Assembly: GCF_025148125.1 (NCBI RefSeq) | Contig: NZ_CP102267.1 | Location: forward strand, 2,924,501-2,988,500 | Reading direction: 5' to 3' | Length of the DNA: 64,000 nt | DNA from: Blautia wexlerae DSM 19850 | GTDB lineage: Bacteria; Bacillota; Clostridia; Lachnospirales; Lachnospiraceae | Shown here: in pieces, positions 51,368 to 62,417 of the stretch | How the letters are laid out: the number at the start of each line of letters is the position of its first letter | Numbering within the stretch: position 1 is the stretch's first letter | The notes under the pieces: model-generated | Databases searched by the model: none | Seen by the model: the letters and a program-made list of their open reading frames with translations, nothing else | What the model was told of the DNA's origin: nothing | Translations under genes and position numbers: made by a program

Positions 51368-51865
51368 TTACAAAATTTTCGAAACAAAATAATCTGCCTC
51401 AATAATATGCCTTACATTCTTCTCCCTGGAGTCAACAATACTCACACGTCCATTCTCCGCTGTCAAAGTCACACTGGAACCATCATTCCGATAAACAGTC
51501 ATATGTTCCACTGGGCGTTCCAATGTCTCTATTGGATCCTTCATCTTTTTTAATCGCCGATACTCATATTCTGGAATAAAAAATTCAAGTTTTGAAATAG
51601 CTCTTTTTTTCTTTAATGGTGTTTTTCTTAATGAACCATTTTTATTCATAAAACGATCCGCAAATTCAACATTTTCCGTCATTTTATCAATTACATCCGA
51701 AATCCCTTCAATCTGCTCAATCGGTCTTTCCTGTAATACTCCTGTTATAATTTTCTTATAGTCCTCTTTTGAAATTTCTACTGACAGCTCATTTCTTCGT
51801 CTGTCATAAGTTTCCCCTGATTCATAAGTAATTTTATAGCAATAGTTAAAGTTCAAATCTTCCAT
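51368..51865 (-). CDS. Hypothetical protein, leader shared with the AAA-ATPase gene
   Basis: 165 residues from ATG 51865 (MEDLNFNYCYKITYESGETY); an alternative ATG at 51889 would lie inside the shared leader. Soluble, mixed fold with two basic stretches (KTPLKKKRA, YRRLKKMKD). No family recognised. The upstream 70 bases are about 85% the same as those before the gene at 48229. Confidence 0.6.
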   Translation of the reverse strand: MEDLNFNYCYKITYESGETYDRRRNELSVEISKEDYKKIITGVLQERPIEQIEGISDVIDKMTENVEFADRFMNKNGSLRKTPLKKKRAISKLEFFIPEYEYRRLKKMKDPIETLERPVEHMTVYRNDGSSVTLTAENGRVSIVDSREKNVRHIIEADYFVSKIL

Positions 51866-51914
51866 GCCTCCAATCAAAAATAGCTTCATGCCATCAAAAT
51901 TTTTAACTAAAATA

Positions 51915-52382: not shown

Positions 52383-52919
52383 TCATATTCCAAATTCTGT
52401 CTTTAATTCGGAAATAATATCATATGGAAAACACTCTGCACATCCCTCATCCTCCATCAAAACAGAAATGATTTCCCTGGCCAGCTGAATTCCCTTGGGG
52501 CTGTGGATATTAGCATTAATTTTTACAGCATTTTTTAAATCTCTTGCCACCCATACCTGATCATATATTTTCAGTTGGGCAATAATTTTTCCTGTTTCAA
52601 CGCAGAAATCAGATTCATTCATATCATCAGGGCTTCCCATGACTCTGTATATTTGGTGCAACCTGTGTAAAATCTGATTTGCATTCAGATCCAAAGGCAC
52701 ATAAATTCTGACATTATCATCCGGAAGAATTCCGCCATTGGCACGGGTCTCTCCGGTAAGGGCTTTCTGATATTGTTTTCTGGTTTCATAATACGATGCT
52801 GTATCCGCTATTGTAAGGTCATTAATATAAAGAACCTTCTCCGGGATTGGGTGAATATCTAAATCATGATGCATATTGGTTTCCTCACTTCCAAATATAA
52901 TTTTCACGTGCTTTGACAT
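52383..52919 (-). CDS. Hypothetical protein
   Basis: 178 residues; GAGAGGTCC before the ATG. Soluble and acidic. Segments VRIYVPLDLNANQILHRLHQ, DFCVETGKIIAQLKIYDQVW and the Cys-containing tail EDEGCAECFPYDII suggest a folded domain, but no family is recognised. It stands alone between the broken AAA gene and the unidentified block at 53040-53340. Confidence 0.65.
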   Translation of the reverse strand: MSKHVKIIFGSEETNMHHDLDIHPIPEKVLYINDLTIADTASYYETRKQYQKALTGETRANGGILPDDNVRIYVPLDLNANQILHRLHQIYRVMGSPDDMNESDFCVETGKIIAQLKIYDQVWVARDLKNAVKINANIHSPKGIQLAREIISVLMEDEGCAECFPYDIISELKTEFGI

Positions 52920-53401
52920 GGACCTCTCATAGAGTACCCTATACTCTGTTTTCTTCCATTTCTTTAATTTGCGCTTTCTCTAATTCTTTCCAAAAATTAC
53001 GACTTTTCATTTACACACTCTGAAAAGAAAATACAGGTTCTCTCCAGTTGACATATAGTCCCTGTCTGACATGAATAGTTTCAACAACACCGCAGAGGCA
53101 TGTAAAATCTCACCATAACGATAAGTGCATATATTGTCTTCCACCCTGACCACGGTGTCGACCCTCTGATACTTTGGGATTTCGGTGCTCTATAGCTATC
53201 CCTGCTATCTTGCTGTCTACGCTTAGCCTACGCGTTACCGCAACAGACTCAAGACTCGCTTCAAATGCTCTGGTTAGCAGCTTATTTGATGGGGCCTCCA
53301 CCCACCGGACTATATACCCTTTGCTGGACGCATGATCAGACCCTCAGTATATTATCCAATTGATTTTGCGTCATAAAATCAATCAGCTATGTAAACCTTA
53401 T
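52920..53401. other. Unidentified structured-looking block with flanking short repeats
   Basis: No convincing gene. 53040-53340 is richer in GC than its surroundings, with stretches such as GGTGGAGGCCCCATCAAA and GCGGTAACGCGTAGGC that look RNA-like. ACCCTCAGTATA occurs here (53341) and again at 52325, with 16 of 19 bases shared around it, so the 1-kb interval with the 52383 gene is bracketed by a direct repeat. It may be an intron or mobile-element relic; unproven. Confidence 0.4.
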
Positions 53402-54871
53402 TTACAGCGAAAATATATCTTTAATTTTTTTAAGCAATCCTTCTCTAAGCTCACCATATGTAGTAAATCTTAATTGGTCATGCATTGAAAGATTAGATCC
53501 TATTTCATCTGATGCTAATGTACCTTCTCTATTTTGATAAATTAATAAAACTTTTTTTCCTTTCCCTTGGGCATAACCAATTTCATGGTGCACATTTTTA
53601 TTCCCATATGACAAGTCTGCAATAAGTAAATCACAGCTATTGATACCATCAATAATCCTTTTGCTAATCACATCTGAATACCCATCTTTATGCTCATCCA
53701 CTTTTATAATATCAATTTCAACATTATAATCTCTCGCTACTATTTCTTTAACATCCTTTACTTGATTATATGTATCCTCTGTTTTTTTATTAAACCACAT
53801 AGACATAAATACTTTTTTAGGCGAGTTATCATATATTTTATCATAAATATTGATAACATCACAAATATGAATATCAGAAATTTGAGTAAGATTATTTTTC
53901 TTTACCCATTTTAGAAATTCATTTGCTTTGCGTTCGTCTAATAGTTTATAATATGAAAAAGCACCGATTACCGCTAGATTATTTGGAACTTCAATTAAAG
54001 CCGCATCTTTTAAAGCACCATTTATTTCTTTGAGTGCTGTTTCTACCAAACACATACCTTCTTCATCTTCTTTTATAAGTTTATTGTCAAACAATAATTT
54101 TAATACTTCTACAAAATATGTAAATTTATTATCTGCTATAAACAATTTCAAAAAAGGATAATCTGATAACTCAATATGCTTTATTATTTGTCTGGTCCAA
54201 AAATAATTTTCACCAAAAGAGGGATCCCCTAAAAGGGTATCATCGTCAAAAGCCTGTTCACTTTCAATAATAACTTTTAAGTTTTGCTCCATTTTTAAAG
54301 GTATCTGCTTTGTATTAATGTTGTAAAATAAAGCTCTACAAAACTTGTCCGTTTCTTCTGCATCTCTGAATAATAAAAGGCAAAATGGAATGCGCTTATG
54401 AGCATAAGTAGAATATTCATTTACTGCACTTAAACGATGATTACCATCAATCCTCAAAAATTCTTTTCCAACTAGGGAATCCTTGTCAAACTGCATGATA
54501 ACTGTTTGCGTAACATCAAAAGCTAAATCATTGTTTTCTTTTTTGACGGCATTACGCTTAATAACATATTTAATATTATTAATTTTAATTTTCAATGATT
54601 TACTTTCAGCACGGACAGTCTCTCTTAAAGTATTTATTTTATCCTTGTCCATTTCTGTGCCACACATATTTGCCCCAAGAATCACTTCAGGAAAAAATGT
54701 AAATCTACCATCAGACAAAAAATTCTCCATTTCTCCACGATGATCGTCAATTAAATCTCTCTGAATTTTCTCATCTGCTTTTGAAATCTCAGATAATTGC
54801 AACATAGATGCAAATCCACGAACGCACAAAAAATTATCCATGGTATAGTCTATAATACCAGTAAGTCTCAT
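53402..54871 (-). CDS. DGQHR/DndB-like domain fused to deoxyribosyltransferase/TIR-like domain
   Basis: 489 residues. The N-terminal 320 residues carry a DGQHR-type core: EFLRIDGNHRLSAVNEY (DGNHR 142-146), IPFCLLLFRD, FYNINTKQIPL. Residues 352-489 begin KKVFMSMWF and contain RIIDGINSCDLLIADLSYGN and HHEIGYAQGKGKKVLLIYQ, the pattern of nucleoside 2-deoxyribosyltransferase/TIR-like effectors. Its ATG overlaps the specificity-subunit stop by four bases (ATGA), so it is translationally coupled to the R-M operon. AT-rich codons like the rest of that operon. Likely a defence component. Confidence 0.75.
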   Translation of the reverse strand: MRLTGIIDYTMDNFLCVRGFASMLQLSEISKADEKIQRDLIDDHRGEMENFLSDGRFTFFPEVILGANMCGTEMDKDKINTLRETVRAESKSLKIKINNIKYVIKRNAVKKENNDLAFDVTQTVIMQFDKDSLVGKEFLRIDGNHRLSAVNEYSTYAHKRIPFCLLLFRDAEETDKFCRALFYNINTKQIPLKMEQNLKVIIESEQAFDDDTLLGDPSFGENYFWTRQIIKHIELSDYPFLKLFIADNKFTYFVEVLKLLFDNKLIKEDEEGMCLVETALKEINGALKDAALIEVPNNLAVIGAFSYYKLLDERKANEFLKWVKKNNLTQISDIHICDVINIYDKIYDNSPKKVFMSMWFNKKTEDTYNQVKDVKEIVARDYNVEIDIIKVDEHKDGYSDVISKRIIDGINSCDLLIADLSYGNKNVHHEIGYAQGKGKKVLLIYQNREGTLASDEIGSNLSMHDQLRFTTYGELREGLLKKIKDIFSL

Positions 54872-56241
54872 AATTCACCACCTAATAAAATTTGCTTAAT
54901 CTTCAGTAACCCATTTTCAATAGATTTTACCGATTGTTGTTTCAATTTTGTGGCATTATCCTTAATATCATCTAGATGCCGCACAATACTATTTTGCTTT
55001 TCTCTGGTAATGTTTGGAACGAGCAACGATTTTATTATTGGAATAGTAATATTTTCTTGCACTGCTCCTATCTTATTCCGTTCAAAATACATCTTACCTA
55101 TGCTGCTATTTATAAAATATGCTACAAATTTTTCATTAATATCAGAAAGTGAAAACCTAATCATGAATGATCCAAATGCAAATCCATCATGTGCCTCATC
55201 TACCATACTGCATACTCCTATTGTTCCACTACGACTAATCAGAATATCTCCTTTTTGAACTCGACTTGAAGATATTTTTTTTTCCATTTTAATTGGTAGA
55301 TACACGATTTCCTCACTATTGATTTCATTTTCTTTCAAATCCGTAATCCGCAAGAAAGGTATCCCTTCATTTGTATAACAATTCTCAACAGAAGCACCAT
55401 ATGAAATGCTTGTGATAAAATTCCCCAATTTGATAAATCTATTATTATAGGTATTTGCCTCAAAATCTCTATAATGAGTTTGATAATAAAATGGATCAAA
55501 TCTTTTTTCAGTCAACTCATTTGAATCGACATAAAATATTCTATTTTTTAGCGTAATATTTTTTGCTGGAGATAAATCAAAACTAAGTTCTTGTAATAGG
55601 TACTCATCCATGCTATTAAGCAAAATTTTAGCTTCTTTTTCCTTATTCACCTTTTCTGTATACGCCTTTTCCATTATAGAAACAATCAATTTTTGCTTAT
55701 CCATATCTGGAACAATTATAGGCAATTTACTTAATTGTTTTAAATTAATATTTTTTTGCGCAGCTTGCGGAGCAAGCTTTTCAATATAATCACGTATAAA
55801 TCTTATATATACATTCAAATACTCTAATGATATAGAATCATCCTTAGACGTGAGTGCTACAAGGCTATCTGGAAAACACGCAGGATAGTCAAGGATAGCA
55901 GTGTATCCAATATTAGCAGCAATAGTAATGACCACCACTTTTTCGTCAAAAAGCCTGCTTGTTGAAAGTCCTAACTCATTCAATGTTTGAGTAAACTCTA
56001 TCATCTCATTGCTTGAGCTTGCCTTTACTATATTGCCAGTTTGTATAAAGGGATAAATTCCATTATAATATCGTGGATCATTCCTAGGTCTATGGCCAAA
56101 ACGTCCACGTTGCATTTTTACTTTTTTCTTAAATGTGCTGACTAAGTGAGCAGATTTAGAAATTATATTTTTTTCAAGCAATATTATGTTCAGATAAAAT
56201 GCCGGATCTAACCGCTCGTCAATCTCACCCCAAGTTTTCAA
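54868..56241 (-). CDS. hsdS: Restriction-modification specificity subunit (HsdS-like)
   Basis: 457 residues with two target-recognition half-domains (about 30-200 and 250-430), each followed by a conserved helix (KLIVSIMEKAYTEKVNKEKE; KQNSIVRHLDDIKDNATKL). TRD motifs YPFIQTGNI and IPFLRITDLKENE. The only usable start is TTG 56241, without a clear ribosome-binding site. The frame is open upstream into the end of the methylase gene at a T7 run, so a frameshift fusion is possible. Determines the DNA site recognised. Confidence 0.88.
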   Translation of the reverse strand: MKTWGEIDERLDPAFYLNIILLEKNIISKSAHLVSTFKKKVKMQRGRFGHRPRNDPRYYNGIYPFIQTGNIVKASSSNEMIEFTQTLNELGLSTSRLFDEKVVVITIAANIGYTAILDYPACFPDSLVALTSKDDSISLEYLNVYIRFIRDYIEKLAPQAAQKNINLKQLSKLPIIVPDMDKQKLIVSIMEKAYTEKVNKEKEAKILLNSMDEYLLQELSFDLSPAKNITLKNRIFYVDSNELTEKRFDPFYYQTHYRDFEANTYNNRFIKLGNFITSISYGASVENCYTNEGIPFLRITDLKENEINSEEIVYLPIKMEKKISSSRVQKGDILISRSGTIGVCSMVDEAHDGFAFGSFMIRFSLSDINEKFVAYFINSSIGKMYFERNKIGAVQENITIPIIKSLLVPNITREKQNSIVRHLDDIKDNATKLKQQSVKSIENGLLKIKQILLGGEL

Positions 56242-56270
56242 AAAAACAATGTTTTCATCAAAATTGGGGC

Positions 56271-58478
56271 TTATTGAAAAAAACGGTCGTTCCCTTCTTC
56301 TATTGCTTTGATAAATTTTACTAGCTCTTCCGAAATAGCAGGCAATTCATTTCCTTTCGTTTCTTTGCCTGTAGCGTCATAGCCTATATCTTCTGCAATT
56401 GCCATGAAAATTGGATAGTCATTTAATATACGTTTGTATTGTTCTAAATACATATCTGAGAGAGTTTCTTTTGTAAACTCAATTTGTTCATCATACTCTT
56501 CGGTAATTACTTGCTTTTTATTTTTTAATATTTCAACTTCCGATTTGTTTTGTTTCTTTTCTGCCTGCTTAATTTGCTTATTTATCTTAGAAATTTCACC
56601 TTTCTTTTTCTTCAAAAGTTCAAACAATCTAATCCCATCCTCAGAATTAGAAATTAAATTGTTTTGTATATTGTTTCTTAAATCAATACGAGTTTGTTTT
56701 TCTGATGCTGAAAATTTTTTTAAAAACATTACAGAACTTTTTACACCTGCACCATTAGCAGAAAAAGCAGTTTGAGGCATAGAAATTATGGCGACAATTC
56801 TAAATGTATCGCTAATATAATCCCGTACATATTGCATGCTTGAATTAGTCAGTACGCCATCAGGCACAACTATAGCCAAATACCCACCTTCGACAAGATA
56901 TTTTTCTGCTTGCTCAATAAATAAAACCTCCGTACTTTGACTAGGTCTTTCAGAAACTTTGCTATTTGGATTAAGCCAATCAACGTCTTTAATTCCCATC
57001 TTATACTGATGTAGATATGCCTTTTCAGTTTGCTTCACGATTGACCCAAATGGAGGATTCGTAATAATGTAGTCGAAAGAATTTTCCTTGAATCCATCAT
57101 TATTTGTTTTTAAGCGTAAATCATCTGGAGAAATAAGTCCGTCTGCAGATACAACATTCGTGTGTCCATCATCATGGATTATCATATTCATTTTGGCAGT
57201 TCTTGAGATTTGCTCATTTATCTCAATACCATACAAGTTATACTTAGCAAAATCATGCCATTGATCATGACATTCTTGGGTCTCTTTTTCACTTTCTTTT
57301 ATCTCATAAAATTCTCTTACCGCTTTCCTAACTTTATCAAGAGCATGAAGTAAAAATCCACCACTGCCACATGAAGTATCAAGGACACGCTTACTTTCAT
57401 CTATTGGTAGACTATCAACAATAAAGCTTACAATATTCCTTGGGGTAAAATATTGTCCAAAATCTCCTCTAAAAAATGATCCCATAAAAGTTTCAAAGGC
57501 TCTTCCCTTACTGTCAAGGTCGGTGTGTAGTAAATCTACACCTTCAAGATAACCTACCACAGTACGAGCTTTTGCTGCATTTAGCTTAATACCTTCTCTA
57601 AAAATTTCAGTATCATTTTTTCTTTCACCAATCGTTTTTCCCTCTTCATATAAGGATATTAATCGTTTCAAAAGGTTTTCTGTTGTTTCTCTATCTGCCT
57701 TTTCAATATCTCTTTTATCTCTACTTTTGGGTTCAACCTTAATAATTTGAAAATCATAAGGTTCACCATTTTTACGTTTTTTCTTTTCGTCAAATATTTT
57801 ACAAAAAATCAACTTATCAAGCTCATCAAAGGCTTCTGACGGATTTAATTCTCCCCCACCCCATAAGGCCTGATGTGCTTGCTTAAAACGATTCGTTAAT
57901 TCTGACTCTTCAACAGTATATAATGGAGAAAGTTTTTGTCCGTCTTCAGTAACCCCTCCATTTTTTGCAAATTTATAACTTGCTAGTCTTTCTACCTTAT
58001 ATTGCGGAATATCAGTTACACTTTCTCTACTATCTATTTCTTTATCAAAAGAATAGTATTCATCTTTGATTCCAGAAGTAACCCAAATATATTTTACAGT
58101 TCCCGCAGTAGCAAAAGCATATGCATATGCTTGGCGAACTGCCTGTTTAAACTCTTGCTCTGTTGTCTCTTCTTTTTTACACTCAACAATAATATGTGGC
58201 TTCTTACATGCACTATCATTATATACTATAATATCTGCTTCTTTGACGTCTGAGCCTACCGTTACCTTCACATATTGTTGAACCTGTTCAACAGGATAGT
58301 TATATTTTAGTACCAATTCACAAAAAGTTTCAGCCTGTATTTTTTCTTCAGGATTATTATAATTCCTAGATATATTTTGATTTATATATGTTATTGTAGA
58401 TGAATCATCACTTATTTTTATCAAGTTATTATTTTGTCCTTCTAAAATAATTTTCTTTATCGCCTCATTTGTTTTCAT
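56271..58478 (-). CDS. hsdM: N6-adenine methylase with N-terminal nuclease-like domain (RM fusion, HsdM-like)
   Basis: 735 residues. Residues 45-140 resemble the HsdR N-terminal nuclease: Asp82 (EADIIVYND), then IIVECKK with Glu99 and Lys101. The type I methylase follows: GQYFTPRNIV (341-350), motif I DTSCGSGGFL (367-376), motif IV NPPF (474-477). A coiled coil runs from about 615 to 665. A nuclease-methylase chain with a separate specificity chain recalls BcgI-like enzymes; no HsdR is present. AAGAGGAGCATTAACG precedes the ATG. Confidence 0.87.
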   Translation of the reverse strand: MKTNEAIKKIILEGQNNNLIKISDDSSTITYINQNISRNYNNPEEKIQAETFCELVLKYNYPVEQVQQYVKVTVGSDVKEADIIVYNDSACKKPHIIVECKKEETTEQEFKQAVRQAYAYAFATAGTVKYIWVTSGIKDEYYSFDKEIDSRESVTDIPQYKVERLASYKFAKNGGVTEDGQKLSPLYTVEESELTNRFKQAHQALWGGGELNPSEAFDELDKLIFCKIFDEKKKRKNGEPYDFQIIKVEPKSRDKRDIEKADRETTENLLKRLISLYEEGKTIGERKNDTEIFREGIKLNAAKARTVVGYLEGVDLLHTDLDSKGRAFETFMGSFFRGDFGQYFTPRNIVSFIVDSLPIDESKRVLDTSCGSGGFLLHALDKVRKAVREFYEIKESEKETQECHDQWHDFAKYNLYGIEINEQISRTAKMNMIIHDDGHTNVVSADGLISPDDLRLKTNNDGFKENSFDYIITNPPFGSIVKQTEKAYLHQYKMGIKDVDWLNPNSKVSERPSQSTEVLFIEQAEKYLVEGGYLAIVVPDGVLTNSSMQYVRDYISDTFRIVAIISMPQTAFSANGAGVKSSVMFLKKFSASEKQTRIDLRNNIQNNLISNSEDGIRLFELLKKKKGEISKINKQIKQAEKKQNKSEVEILKNKKQVITEEYDEQIEFTKETLSDMYLEQYKRILNDYPIFMAIAEDIGYDATGKETKGNELPAISEELVKFIKAIEEGNDRFFQ

Positions 58479-58494
58479 CGTTAATGCTCCTCTT

Positions 58495-58530
58495 TATAAT
58501 ATAATCTATAATATAATCTATAATATCGCC
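58495..58530. repeat. 12-bp tandem repeat in the R-M promoter region
   Basis: ATAATATAATCT occurs three times in a row (the last partial) directly upstream of the methylase ribosome-binding site. It offers several TATAAT-like boxes and could vary in copy number. Confidence 0.55.
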
Positions 58531-58561
58531 AAAATTACAATGAAATTATTTGTATATTCTT

Positions 58562-58713
58562 TCAGCTTACTCGTTGATTCTTTTCTAGTTTAGCCAACAT
58601 ACCAAAACCCATTCTAATAGTTTCCTTTAATTATACCTTTGTCATTTCTTTAGCAATCAGCAATTTCCATAGCTTGTTATATGCGATAGCCCTCACGTAT
58701 CTTTCTTCTGTCA
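58562..58713 (-). pseudogene. Broken XRE-type regulator upstream of the R-M operon
   Basis: The frame reads RAIAYNKLWKLLIAKEMTKV, stop, LKETIRMGFGMLAKLEKNQR, VS, stop. Apart from the in-frame TAA this matches small Cro/CI regulators of the YNKLFKLLIDKxMTK...LAKLGKNE type. The C-terminal half is gone. It may be the lost controller of the operon. Confidence 0.6.
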
Positions 58714-58931
58714 AGCCCTAATCTATTGATTTTACTGGCTTTAACGATTTTTATTTACCTCAAAAACAGATCCGGGAGTGATGGATATCGTGATATCATG
58801 TACCGAATAACTGATACATGGCTACAGTTTATAAAACCTTCCTACAGTTTGCTTTATATTAAACGATAGAAGCCAAATGCCTTAACAAATAACAGACCGC
58901 TTTTGCTATCTGTTTATTTCTCACTGACTTT

Positions 58932-59105
58932 TTACGGTTTTCTAATATTTTTTGACAATGTATCCAATCATGGCAGAAGTTTTGCAAGAAACTCTTTATT
59001 TTTGTCATCTACATGTCTAGGAATCTCCGTAAGCCAATATTCGAAATGGTCAAATGGTTTCAAATTATTTGCCTTTGCAGTTTCTGTGATACTATTAATG
59101 ATCAC
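58932..59105 (-). pseudogene. IS66 transposase C-terminal remnant
   Basis: Reads SITETAKANNLKPFDHFEYW, then LTEIPRHVDD and FLAKLLP, stop (TGA for the usual TGG), LDTLSKNIRKP. This is the end of an IS66 TnpC of a different subgroup from the one at 28693. No other part of the element remains; 58714-58931 shows no gene. Confidence 0.7.
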
Positions 59106-59182
59106 TGAACTATTGTTAATCCTCAATAACCAGTACCTTTTCAATTTATCATATTTCTGAGATAATCACTCCAACAACATTT

Positions 59183-59332
59183 TTAACATGATTTCGCGCA
59201 ATTCACTCGATTTACGCAATTCATGTTCATTTTATCCAGAAAAATCATTTCATGAATGCCTTCCATCAATGTAGACCAGTCTATTTCTTTTTTATACACA
59301 TAATTTTCTGATTCCATACGCATCTTATCCAT
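59183..59332 (-). pseudogene. Small gene fragment after the helicase gene
   Basis: 49 codons starting two bases after the helicase stop (TAGTGATG): MDKMRMESENYVYKKEIDWS, then LMEGIHEMIFLDK. It looks like the beginning of a longer gene that has been cut off; family uncertain. Confidence 0.35.
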
Positions 59333-59334
59333 CA

Positions 59335-61830
59335 CTATAAAAGTGCTTTTATCTGCTCTTTATACCGTCTCCGATAATAGTCCATCGCCCTATACTCAAT
59401 AACATCCTTCATTTGTTCCGCCAGCACTGGCTCCTTCACAATTTCTTCCATTTCATCCCTCAATGCCAACGCCGCGCCATCCTTTTTCACAAAGAATTCT
59501 TCCCCAGATTTTAACAGAAAGTGTACCGGCATTTTCATTATCTTTTGGATATGGTTCTTATCCGAAATCTTGCGATATTCTTCATATGTAATCTCTTTCT
59601 CTAAATCTTTCCAGTTTGTTCCTGTAGAGAAGAATTCTTTCCAGCTTGCCAGAAGTTCCGCCTCTGACACCTCCATTCTCACATTCCCATGGTTATAAAA
59701 AGCCATCAGTACCGGCATTTTATACACCTTGCTCATGTTGGTGTTTTCCAGCAGATTTATAAAGTCTTTTCCTATTCCCTGGCTGAGTCTTTTCTGCTCA
59801 TCTGTGAGTTCATCCAATTCTTCCAGATAATTCAAATACTTTTTAAACGGGTTCTCATTCGAATGTGTGACCGCCATCTGATACACATCATCATCCATAT
59901 AAGTAAACAAATCCATTCTGGTTGGTTGTTTGCCAAGCAATTCTTTGATCCGGAAATACTCATTTCTGATCTGTTCTTTGATTGTCAGTTGTTTCTTGTC
60001 CATTTCCGCAAACAGATCAATCAATCTCATATCAAAATCAACGAAGCATTCATCTGGATAATCCGCTTTATCTGCCGGATAATATGTTTCTTTTCCTGTT
60101 TTGTTTTTCCCTGTCAGCAAATACCTGACTCTTCCCGCTTTTTCATAATTGCCGATAAAGTCCAGAACATTGAGATATTCTTTTCCCTTATTTCTGCGCA
60201 ATCCTCTTCCAAGCTGCTGTAGAAAGACAACCGGGGATTCTGTCGGACGCAGGAACATTACCATATCGACTGATGGAATATCTACGCCTTCGTTGAACAT
60301 ATCCACTGAAAAGATAACTTTGATTTCTCCATTTTTCAGTTTCTCAATCGCTTCTGCTCTATCCATGGAAAACTCTCCATCTGCATTACTATAAACTGCT
60401 GCCGACGGAATTCCTCTTTTACCGAATTCTTTTGCCATTTCTTCTGCATGTTTTCTGGAACAGCAGAATCCTAATGCCTGCCTGGAGCCATATTTGCAGT
60501 AATATTTGTAAATCAACTCATGCCTGTAAGCATTCCCGATATAAGTTCTGTTCAGTTCTTCTTCTGCATATTTCCCCTTAACTATATGTAGCTTTGTGTA
60601 GTCAGTCTCATCATAAATTCCATAGTAATGAAACGGAACCAGCATTCCCTTATTGATTCCGTCTTTCAGTGAAATCTCATACGGCACATTATAATCGCAG
60701 ATTTCATATATATTTTTGCCATCCATTCTCTCAGGCGTTGCCGTCAGTCCAAGGAGAAACTGCGGTCTGAAATATTCTACAATTCTTCGATATTGGTCAT
60801 TGACTGCATGATGAAATTCATCAATCACCACGTAATTGAAGTAATCTGGATCGAAATATTTTTCATTTAAATATTCCGGTTTTCCAATGGTCGCTACCGA
60901 AGCAAATATAAGTGGCTTATCTGTGCACTTCTCTTCTCCCATAAAAAATCCATAGTCTTTGGAATTCCTTACATTCTGAAAAGAAACTGCTGCCTGTTTC
61001 AGAATCTCTTCCCTATGTGCAACAAACAACACTTTCTCATATTTTTTTGAATCAAAAGCAGCCAAAAATGTTTTCCCGATGCCTGTTGCAGCCTGAATGA
61101 GTGCTTTCTGTGCTCCTTCTGCTCTTGTATCTTCCAATGCGCACAATGCCTCGATCTGTGCTCCTCTTGGTTCATATAAAGGTTTTATTTTCGTATCATT
61201 TGTTTCCGACTCTGTAAAGTCATATCTGTCAAGGTCTTTTGCCACCGCCGGACGATGCCAGTTCTGGGAGTAACGTTTTAATTCTTTGTCATCAATGATA
61301 ATGGAATGATTCGCAAATAAATCTTCAAATGTACGAAAGAACTCTTTGTAGTTTTCTGGGTCTTTCTGACTGCTGAACCGATAATTCCATTCTATTCCTG
61401 AGGTCAGCGCACTTCTGGAAATATTGGAAGAACCGATATAAAGTTCACTGTGATCTGTATAATGGAAAATGTAAGACTTTGGATGAAAAGAACGTCCTTT
61501 TTCACAATAAAATCTAAGATCAACTCTGTCACCAAGTTTTCTTTTGATCAGATATAGTGCTGATGGCTGTGTAATTCCAAGGTAGTTTCCTGTCAGGATT
61601 CGGATTTTGGCTCCACGTTTTAAAGTATGTTCCAGTTCTTTCAGCAACATTCTCACTCCGGATTCCATAAGAAAAGAGACAATGATATCAACGCTTTCTG
61701 CTTTTTTCATGCTCTGTATCAGCTGATAATATAGCTGTCTTCTTTTATCCGGTCCGCCAGTCATTGCATCTGTGGAATATTCGTTTTCATACCCGATGTT
61801 TACTTTTTCTGCAGAAGTAAATTCAGCCAT
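59335..61830 (-). CDS. PLD-nuclease/superfamily 2 helicase (DUF3427 type)
   Basis: 831 residues. N-terminal phospholipase-D-like nuclease half-site HPKSY (116-120) with GSSN (133-136); SF2 helicase core with Walker A ATGIGKT (248-254), DEFHH (337-341), SVDMFNEGVDIPSVD and QQLGRGLRR; C-terminal DUF3427-like part. Cytoplasmic DNA helicase-nuclease, probably defence-related. Not HsdR: it lacks the type I nuclease layout. Its start overlaps the methyltransferase gene upstream by 31 bases, giving a coupled pair. Confidence 0.85.
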   Translation of the reverse strand: MAEFTSAEKVNIGYENEYSTDAMTGGPDKRRQLYYQLIQSMKKAESVDIIVSFLMESGVRMLLKELEHTLKRGAKIRILTGNYLGITQPSALYLIKRKLGDRVDLRFYCEKGRSFHPKSYIFHYTDHSELYIGSSNISRSALTSGIEWNYRFSSQKDPENYKEFFRTFEDLFANHSIIIDDKELKRYSQNWHRPAVAKDLDRYDFTESETNDTKIKPLYEPRGAQIEALCALEDTRAEGAQKALIQAATGIGKTFLAAFDSKKYEKVLFVAHREEILKQAAVSFQNVRNSKDYGFFMGEEKCTDKPLIFASVATIGKPEYLNEKYFDPDYFNYVVIDEFHHAVNDQYRRIVEYFRPQFLLGLTATPERMDGKNIYEICDYNVPYEISLKDGINKGMLVPFHYYGIYDETDYTKLHIVKGKYAEEELNRTYIGNAYRHELIYKYYCKYGSRQALGFCCSRKHAEEMAKEFGKRGIPSAAVYSNADGEFSMDRAEAIEKLKNGEIKVIFSVDMFNEGVDIPSVDMVMFLRPTESPVVFLQQLGRGLRRNKGKEYLNVLDFIGNYEKAGRVRYLLTGKNKTGKETYYPADKADYPDECFVDFDMRLIDLFAEMDKKQLTIKEQIRNEYFRIKELLGKQPTRMDLFTYMDDDVYQMAVTHSNENPFKKYLNYLEELDELTDEQKRLSQGIGKDFINLLENTNMSKVYKMPVLMAFYNHGNVRMEVSEAELLASWKEFFSTGTNWKDLEKEITYEEYRKISDKNHIQKIMKMPVHFLLKSGEEFFVKKDGAALALRDEMEEIVKEPVLAEQMKDVIEYRAMDYYRRRYKEQIKALL

Positions 61831-62417
61831 TTTTCCTCACCTCTTCCCGGTCGGACATCTCCTGTGATCCAATGTTCTTCTATTTTAAGGCCATGCATGT
61901 CATGTATGAAATCTTTAAATGTATCTGTCGTAAAATCGGTAAAATATCTTCCGTTCCGTTCACCTTCAAATTCTCCGTATTTGAAAGAGGTATAAATCCA
62001 TCCTTTCGATTTCAATGCTGCATACATATTTTTCAAAACTTCACGCAGTTGTTTTTTCGGCAAATGGAGAATAGATGCACAAGCCCATATGCCATCATAT
62101 TTTTCTTTTTCATCCAATTCCTGAAACAGCATCTGCCTGACTTTGATTCCCGTATATTCACTTGCAATCCGACACAATTGTTCTGAACCATCAACTGCAT
62201 CTACCTGATATCCACGACTCAGAAAGTACTTTGTATCTCTACCTGCACCGCAGCCAAAGTCAAGAATATACGCATCTGGGTTAAGTTTCTCCAGAAATTT
62301 ATCTTGCACTTCTGTAAACTTTACCGAAACAGTCCCAGAGGCAAAAGACTGCGCATTTTCGTTGTAATATTTTAATGTTTTATCTATATCTGCCATATAT
62401 TTACTACCAAATGCCAT
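61800..62417 (-). CDS. Class I SAM-dependent methyltransferase, TehB-like
   Basis: 205 residues (an ATG at 62396, MADIDKTLKYYNEN, is an equally good start). Motif I ILDFGCGAGRDTKYFLSRGY, DGSEQLCRIAS, YDGIWACASILHL. It overlaps the helicase gene by 31 bases. This pair recurs together in Bacillota genomes from memory of such annotations, suggesting a functional unit; the target of methylation is unknown. Confidence 0.85.
   Translation of the reverse strand: MAFGSKYMADIDKTLKYYNENAQSFASGTVSVKFTEVQDKFLEKLNPDAYILDFGCGAGRDTKYFLSRGYQVDAVDGSEQLCRIASEYTGIKVRQMLFQELDEKEKYDGIWACASILHLPKKQLREVLKNMYAALKSKGWIYTSFKYGEFEGERNGRYFTDFTTDTFKDFIHDMHGLKIEEHWITGDVRPGRGEEKWLNLLLQKK

Follow-up and report, generated by a model that had tools for sequence, protein, structure and literature searches.

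BsaXI is a Type IIB restriction-modification (R-M) enzyme with the composition (RM)2S (PMC11997821). PrrC is encoded within a Type I locus and becomes active once Stp of phage T4 has inhibited the enzyme of that locus, and PARIS is named in the same source as a second guard of R-M systems (PMC12707154). In SspE, a ParB-like domain with a DGQQR motif takes part in DNA-mark sensing, GTP hydrolysis and licensing of the effector domain (PMC13251355). Here we analyzed a three-gene operon that resembles each of these systems in part, located in a 64,000-nt window (positions 2924501-2988500 of NZ_CP102267.1) of the single-contig 4.69 Mb genome of Blautia wexlerae DSM 19850. The genes lie head to tail as open reading frames (ORFs) on the minus strand of the window and encode a nuclease-methylase (RM; 735 aa, 56271..58478), a specificity subunit (S; 54868..56277, 469 codons after a predicted slip site) and a third protein, DT (489 aa, 53402..54871). 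The S stop and the DT start overlap in ATGA (54868..54871). A preliminary description of the window had proposed this operon and its 4-base overlap, and both were borne out by the ORFs and by Pfam domains as described. Like BsaXI and BcgI, of which only BsaXI was compared here, the operon encodes an RM chain with an N-terminal nuclease and an N6-methylase together with a Type I-like S and no HsdR. Two features set it apart from both, namely an S that appears to extend RM through a -1 frameshift and the attachment of DT as a third gene.

To define the R-M core, RM and S were compared with domain and structure databases. Pfam places HSDR_N_2 (2.4e-15, aa 43-158) and N6_Mtase (1.3e-35, aa 322-607, with NPPF) in the single RM ORF. 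Among PDB chains, RM matches RM.BsaXI best (8w0p, aa 5-594, E 4.1e-36), and Type I M subunits rank behind it. Most rows preserve the nuclease motif AD..D..ECK, as A81, D82, D88, E99, C100 and K101 are each present in 48-49 of the 51 aligned RM rows (L070, L073 and L076 are short or unalignable at this motif). S contains two target-recognition domains, seen as two Methylase_S (PF01420) stretches (4.9e-27); its best PDB matches are Type I S chains, two of which precede S.BsaXI (9.9e-7). Based on these comparisons, RM and S probably form a Type IIB (BsaXI)-like enzyme. The preliminary description was right that the window holds no HsdR, and across the 53 places compared no further gene, an HsdR translocase included, recurs in more than five; the point is nevertheless a side issue, because an RM chain that has its own PD-(D/E)XK motif and resembles RM.BsaXI is not expected to need HsdR. 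That description had recognized the nuclease-methylase and S, while the BsaXI-like nature of the enzyme and the frameshift cassette described below were missed. Membership in MADS was considered and rejected since RM matches MAD2 at 297.6 bits (cut-off 720) and S matches MAD5 at 105.7 bits (cut-off 400), far under the equivalog cut-offs; only three genes recur, in contrast with MADS.

All three ORFs lie where the preliminary ORF list had placed them, except for the start of S. The listed S ORF (54868-56241, minus strand) begins with TTG at 56241, whereas conserved S coding, when start regions are compared, begins upstream of it, directly at the RM stop and in the -1 frame relative to RM, so that this TTG is probably not the real start and probably not used. 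In the RM-S-DT gene order, S mostly lacks a start codon near its beginning. The RM end instead carries a consensus cassette: an in-frame U_UUU_UUY heptamer, a 6-nt spacer with the stop codon, a covarying hairpin, and S in the -1 frame. In the window, the slippery heptamer T_TTT_TTT (56277..56283, in frame as CGT TTT TTT CAA TAA) is followed by the spacer CAATAA with the RM stop codon (56271..56276) and by a predicted stimulatory hairpin (56227..56270; 5' arm 56265-56270, 3' arm 56227-56232), for which covariation, folding and a covariance model agree. A Shine-Dalgarno-like AAGGG upstream of the heptamer (56292..56296) is a possible further stimulator. Efficient motifs in Escherichia coli include H_HH.U_UU.Y, and stimulators there usually begin 5-8 nt downstream (PMC4066793), and U_UUU_UUU is, according to a review, far less shift-prone than A_AAA_AAG (PMC5009743).

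The cassette was then counted across the homologous loci. It is present in 32 of 38 RM-S-DT loci in addition to the window and in none of the 12 RM-DT-S loci. An in-frame T_TTT_TT[TC] was found at 34 of the 54 RM ends tested, and L053 adds one; the initial count was 35, from which L077 was excluded as an unrelated AAATTTC, and L024 repeats L036. The heptamer is also carried by G371, a locus with RM and S and no DT. Elsewhere in the RM genes, in-frame T6[TC] occupies only 19 of 34453 codon positions. Among the 34 cassettes, the heptamer is T7 in 18 and T6C in 16, the 0-frame stop follows two codons after it in 33, and the -1 frame is open for 449-488 codons. The stem opens at nt 7-9 in 32/34, compared with 394/1496 background windows, and a Shine-Dalgarno-like motif 4-16 nt upstream of the heptamer is found in 21/34, compared with 13% of in-frame background positions.

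Across the 32 distinct rows of the alignment, 99.5% of cells in the six-pair outer stem are paired, with 24 two-sided changes against 8.8 in shuffles, and the pairing collapses when the stem is slid by one column. The outermost pair swaps between C-G and G-C; the base on its 3' side, the third of a Gly codon, pairs with the facing base in all 34 rows (one as G-U). Within the 5' arm, Pro is encoded by CCC in 32/34 cassettes, compared with 198/849 in RM genes. The third-base pairing at Gly and the CCC bias point to selection on the RNA and not on the protein alone, with the caveat that the rows are related. A covariance model (R1) matched the window at 56211-56283 with 69.7 bits, the window being part of the model alignment. 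In 295 genomes of the order it gave five matches, all at RM/S junctions, although four of these were in the model alignment (G301 as L045) and only G537 was new; L053 and L109, both outside the model, were also matched.

The layout recurs in a second set, made up of distant RM-S pairs (25-32% RM identity): they carry T6[TC], a 6-nt spacer and a GCCC...GGGC hairpin with S in the -1 frame, and most have an AAGGA-like motif; no DT was found within the fetched DNA. Stem pairing in this set holds in 68/70 cells, whereas shuffles average 60.7 and reach 66 at most, and at one position four Watson-Crick types occur. This count was made by a script with fixed arms, as MAFFT misaligned the 5' arm, and used only L115 of the identical L115 and L116. 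When 34 loci were scanned, the cassette was present with a -1 ORF of 303 codons or more in 11 (L115 and L116 giving the same answer), of which L109 belongs to the first set; L098 has the cassette with a -1 ORF of only 78 codons, the 10 plasmid loci have no cassette, and the heptamer is T6G in L110 and L118, which lack the hairpin. This distant clade lay beyond the reach of covariance model R1. Seven of the loci (L112, L114-L117, L119 and L120) are contigs of the viral collection that carry RM-S and the cassette with no DT in the fetched DNA. In plasmid relatives of RM-S, the gene in third place (L122:7105-8808 and L128:6523-8397) encodes an ATPase or a PglW/MAD6-like kinase, and the ATPase weakly matches OLD-TOPRIM (20.5 against 23.2 bits). 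Judged from these sequences, it looks as if the third slot beside RM-S took interchangeable guards.

Taking the cassettes of both sets, we regard programmed -1 frameshifting that yields both RM and an RM-S fusion as the simplest reading and as very probable. Such a fusion can work, given that an active fusion was obtained when the frame break between M and S of EcoKI was removed artificially (PMC3510504). The arrangement recalls dnaX (PMC5009743) in its slippery heptamer, its downstream hairpin and, in the 21 cassettes mentioned above, the Shine-Dalgarno-like element upstream, whereas here the slip site is U_UUU_UUY and the shift would supply a restriction enzyme with its DNA-specificity subunit. 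A literature search found neither the three-gene system nor RM/S frameshifting described, which is weak evidence since most subscription journals were outside its scope. The available parts of two surveys of bacterial frameshifting name no RM/S case (PMC3711429, PMC4066793). The PRFect paper includes methyltransferases among the genes known to contain frameshifts, with no detail in the part available (PMC10885494), and an earlier sighting of RM/S frameshifting is therefore possible.

The spread of DT was followed outward from the window. Among 299 genomes of the same family, the only full-length DT is that of the window, and six other genomes have matches to its C-terminal domain only; the 295 genomes of the order add three full-length DTs, in G518 (44% identity), G537 (44%) and G301 (38%), each in an RM-S-DT operon. 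These four DTs were aligned, and scanning 84,980 species genomes with the alignment gave 52 DT loci; the scan keys on two DT peptides, so that diverged DTs are missed, and takes no account of neighbours. Judging from the organism names, we take these loci to belong to Bacillota, Bacteroidota, Pseudomonadota, Spirochaetota and other phyla. The gene orders as first called were RM-S-DT (37), RM-DT-S (12), S-DT (1), DT alone (1) and RM-S (1). The S-DT locus, L053, has an RM upstream by tblastn, which brings RM-S-DT to 38 loci; in the RM-S locus, L079, DT is cut by the contig end, and in L041, the DT-alone locus, the contig begins 427 bases before DT. Therefore, RM and S both adjoin DT in 51/52 loci and the remaining locus is cut by a contig edge, which answers the concern that DT homologues might mostly occur alone or beside unrelated genes. 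S and DT overlap, with a negative gap, in 24 of the 37 loci first assigned the order RM-S-DT, and in L053.

All-against-all clustering found only RM, S and DT in more than five of 53 places, the window included; L024 and L036 represent one contig, and G301/L026 and L045 another, so that these are not independent. A correlation holds between RM and DT distances (r=0.70 against a permuted maximum of 0.12; n=44, with six of 50 rows left out). The three-gene operon is conserved and rare in species genomes. RM is found more widely: of six RM homologues above 40% identity in the 295 genomes, four have DT, while DT is missing from both G371, with RM and S, and G511, with a longer RM. At 33-35% identity, three RM relatives among 398 genomes of the phylum have no DT adjoining, and of nine matches at 30-35%, six were fetched (31-32%, one on a 3.3 kb contig), none with DT. 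From this distribution, DT seems to depend on RM-S and not vice versa. Two DT scans of the viral contigs found no relatives of DT. The RM scan of that collection showed one contig (L108:4691-7814) on which a DT (1.1e-46), truncated at the contig end, follows RM, so that DT is not wholly absent from it. Among plasmids there were two DT matches, one limited to the C-terminal domain and one an in-frame RM-DT chain without S. The latter, on a Leisingera plasmid (L014:7864-10107), links RM residues 133-507 with DT residues 138-489 in one frame, S being lost, and is either what is left of an alphaproteobacterial RM-S-DT operon or a natural fusion.

DT consists of a DGQHR/ParB-Srx-like N-terminal domain, a helical middle and an NDT/DNPH1/TIR-like C-terminal domain. 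The window DT weakly matches TIGR03187 DGQHR (6.3e-6; 26.1 bits against a curated cut-off of 58.85) and PF05014 Nuc_deoxyrib_tr (1.3e-5, under the curated cut-off). It has no PF14072 match at E<=0.01, and does not reach the curated score of the DndB/DGQHR family by TIGR03187 or PF14072; PADLOC gives only a weak 'Effector TIR' (3.2e-6). Alignment A2 comprises 47 of the 52 DTs, the window included, after omission of the near-copies L039, L049 and L078 and of L076 and L077, whose DTs lack the C-terminal domain. At E<=0.01, 42/47 of its members match DGQHR, 27/47 match PF05014 and 1/47 matches PF14072. The N-terminal motifs are QR at 37-38, RIDGNHR at 140-146 and F182xxxN186, with Q37, R38, D142, G143, H145, R146, F182 and N186 each present in 52/52 aligned DTs; the QR pair, DGxHR and FxxxN of the motif list in PMC4619093 are all there. 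The C-terminal domain (about 349-489) has the PF05014 superfamily fold with Glu430 at the catalytic position. This NDT-position Glu is kept in 50/52 aligned DTs, and F355, N426, V427, E430 and G432 are invariant in A2, which together suggest catalysis by DT.

The closest folds to the C-terminal domain are DNPH1, including complexes with hmdUMP, and MilB with hmCMP, and SPARTA-TIR is also matched; Foldseek gave only weak CorA-like noise for the N-terminal half. The preliminary reading of DT as a DGQHR protein with an NDT/TIR-like domain is supported by structure comparison, strongly at the C-terminus and modestly at the N-terminus, where the predicted domain is ParB/sulfiredoxin-like and is joined to a DNPH1/NDT/SPARTA-TIR fold. 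The TIR likeness is a fold match only, so that NAD+ hydrolysis by DT would be putative. In comparison with the TIR proteins of SPARTA (TIR-APAZ) and CAP12/Pycsar, the sequence profile of DT finds only NDT/DNPH1/CMP-glycosidase chains among PDB sequences, and no widely recurring partner exists beyond RM and S. DT shares with SspE and GmrSD the motifs DGxxR, QR pair and FxxxN in an N-terminal domain, predicted in DT to be ParB/Srx-like, followed by a C-terminal enzyme; its effector is NDT/DNPH1/TIR-like and not HNH, and no further gene accompanies it in more than five loci.

Based on the architecture, the conservation of the three genes, the covarying cassette, the C-terminal fold and the conserved Glu, each of which the comparisons establish, we propose how the operon may work. 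RM would supply nuclease and adenine methylase. Most ribosomes would terminate at the RM end, while a fraction would slip by -1 on U_UUU_UUU, aided by the hairpin, to make RM-S. RM and RM-S could then assemble into an (RM)2S-like enzyme by which self DNA is methylated and foreign DNA is cut. DT would be translated from the ATGA overlap at the S end, through a presumed coupling by which its dose tracks the RM-S product, and its DGQHR (ParB/sulfiredoxin-like) domain may bind NTP and/or DNA and monitor the R-M enzyme or the modification state of DNA. Should a phage disable or escape the enzyme, the NDT/DNPH1/TIR-like domain would cleave the N-glycosidic bond of a nucleotide, NAD+ or (d)NMP, and the infection would be stopped. 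The preliminary description had likewise proposed that DT may sense modification or restriction and then deplete nucleotides. It has been suggested elsewhere that DndB could limit nucleotides (PMC10853773) and that an NDT domain may act on DNA as a toxin-like glycosidase (PMC3710099), and DT brings parts of this kind together next to an R-M enzyme. On balance we lean slightly towards a self-contained Type IIB-like R-M enzyme with a built-in guard. That DT itself is a guard like PrrC (ecoprrI) or PARIS, effectors that watch an R-M system, is evenly poised in our judgement; gene linkage is what the comparison with these guards covered, and DT, with its ParB-like and NDT/TIR-like domains, is a different protein from both.

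The same features of DT would suit two other roles, each of which we consider unlikely. DT could be a DndB-like regulator whose DGQHR domain binds DNA or NTP and represses or tunes the R-M operon, with the NDT-like domain as a nucleotide sensor. DndB is an ATP-dependent negative regulator (PMC10853773), and SspE couples its DGQQR ParB-like domain to ligand-dependent allostery (PMC13251355). DGQHR is also the family that DT matches most widely, whereas the Glu kept in 50/52 DTs and the five residues invariant in A2, Glu430 among them, suggest catalysis. A somewhat less probable role is that of a nucleotide-pool sanitiser, which would cleave hypermodified phage nucleotides as DNPH1 (hmdUMP) and MilB (hmCMP) do and so keep phage DNA from hiding from the R-M enzyme; these two proteins are the closest folds, and a similar DGQQR domain occurs in GmrSD, which targets glucosylated hmC DNA (PMC4619093).

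S might also be made without frameshifting, by stop-start coupling that starts partly from non-canonical codons, the poly-T then being a phase-variation or transcription-slippage tract. The hsdM and hsdS genes of EcoKI share 1 nt, and their translation is coupled (PMC3510504), and in 7/34 cassettes the second -1 codon is ATG, GTG or TTG, where such coupling would be possible. The other 27 have no start there, however, and five of the 34 have none of these codons in the S frame for 25-46 codons. In addition, 16/34 cassettes have T6C in place of T7, and two distant clades combine the heptamer with the 6-nt spacer and a covarying hairpin. We hold this explanation to be improbable. Transcriptional slippage on the T7 heptamers would give the same products as frameshifting.

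The surroundings of the operon vary among loci. Pfam identified Ymh, HNH, DUF4238 or 8xMP in four of seven scanned genes between S and DT, and Mrr, TIR_2, AbiEii, DUF5655 and HD-CE genes among other neighbours, mixed with ordinary genes. The 24 neighbour genes (10+10+4) were chosen by eye and not at random, and several are housekeeping or of unknown function; some point to a defence setting. In the window, the operon region (53000-58999) is A+T-rich, with GC of 0.31-0.34 per kb, whereas GC is 0.41-0.43 at 46-48 kb and at 63 kb; acquired DNA would be expected to look like this. The gap at 58478-59335 holds decayed pieces, of which 58971-59165 matches the C-terminal element of an IS66 transposase (6.9e-8). 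Upstream on the same strand lies a PLD-nuclease/ResIII helicase gene (59335-61830), whose best PADLOC model is a Type IV methyl-directed enzyme (343 bits), and a SAM methyltransferase gene (61800-62417) overlaps it on that strand and is not conserved with the operon. The PLDc/ResIII helicase gene, like HsdR, was rejected as a fourth part of the system, as it recurs in 3/53 places (window, L034 and L045). The downstream genes (51368-51889 and 52383-52919) have no Pfam, PADLOC or NCBIfam match of note.

We tentatively suggest, at less than even confidence, that frameshifting is widespread among Type IIB-like R-M systems as a way to make RM-S fusions, and that it here also sets the dose of a guard with a ParB-like sensor and a DNPH1/TIR-like N-glycosidase, such that one hairpin would fix the ratio of enzyme, reader and suicide effector. 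If so, another protein architecture for the guarding of R-M enzymes would stand beside PrrC and PARIS, built on a nucleotide-cleaving fold common to DNPH1 and SPARTA. S genes seemingly without a start codon in RM-S operons would be frameshift products and not annotation errors. The annotation, cloning and testing of RM-S systems would change accordingly, as an S gene cloned alone would miss its real start.

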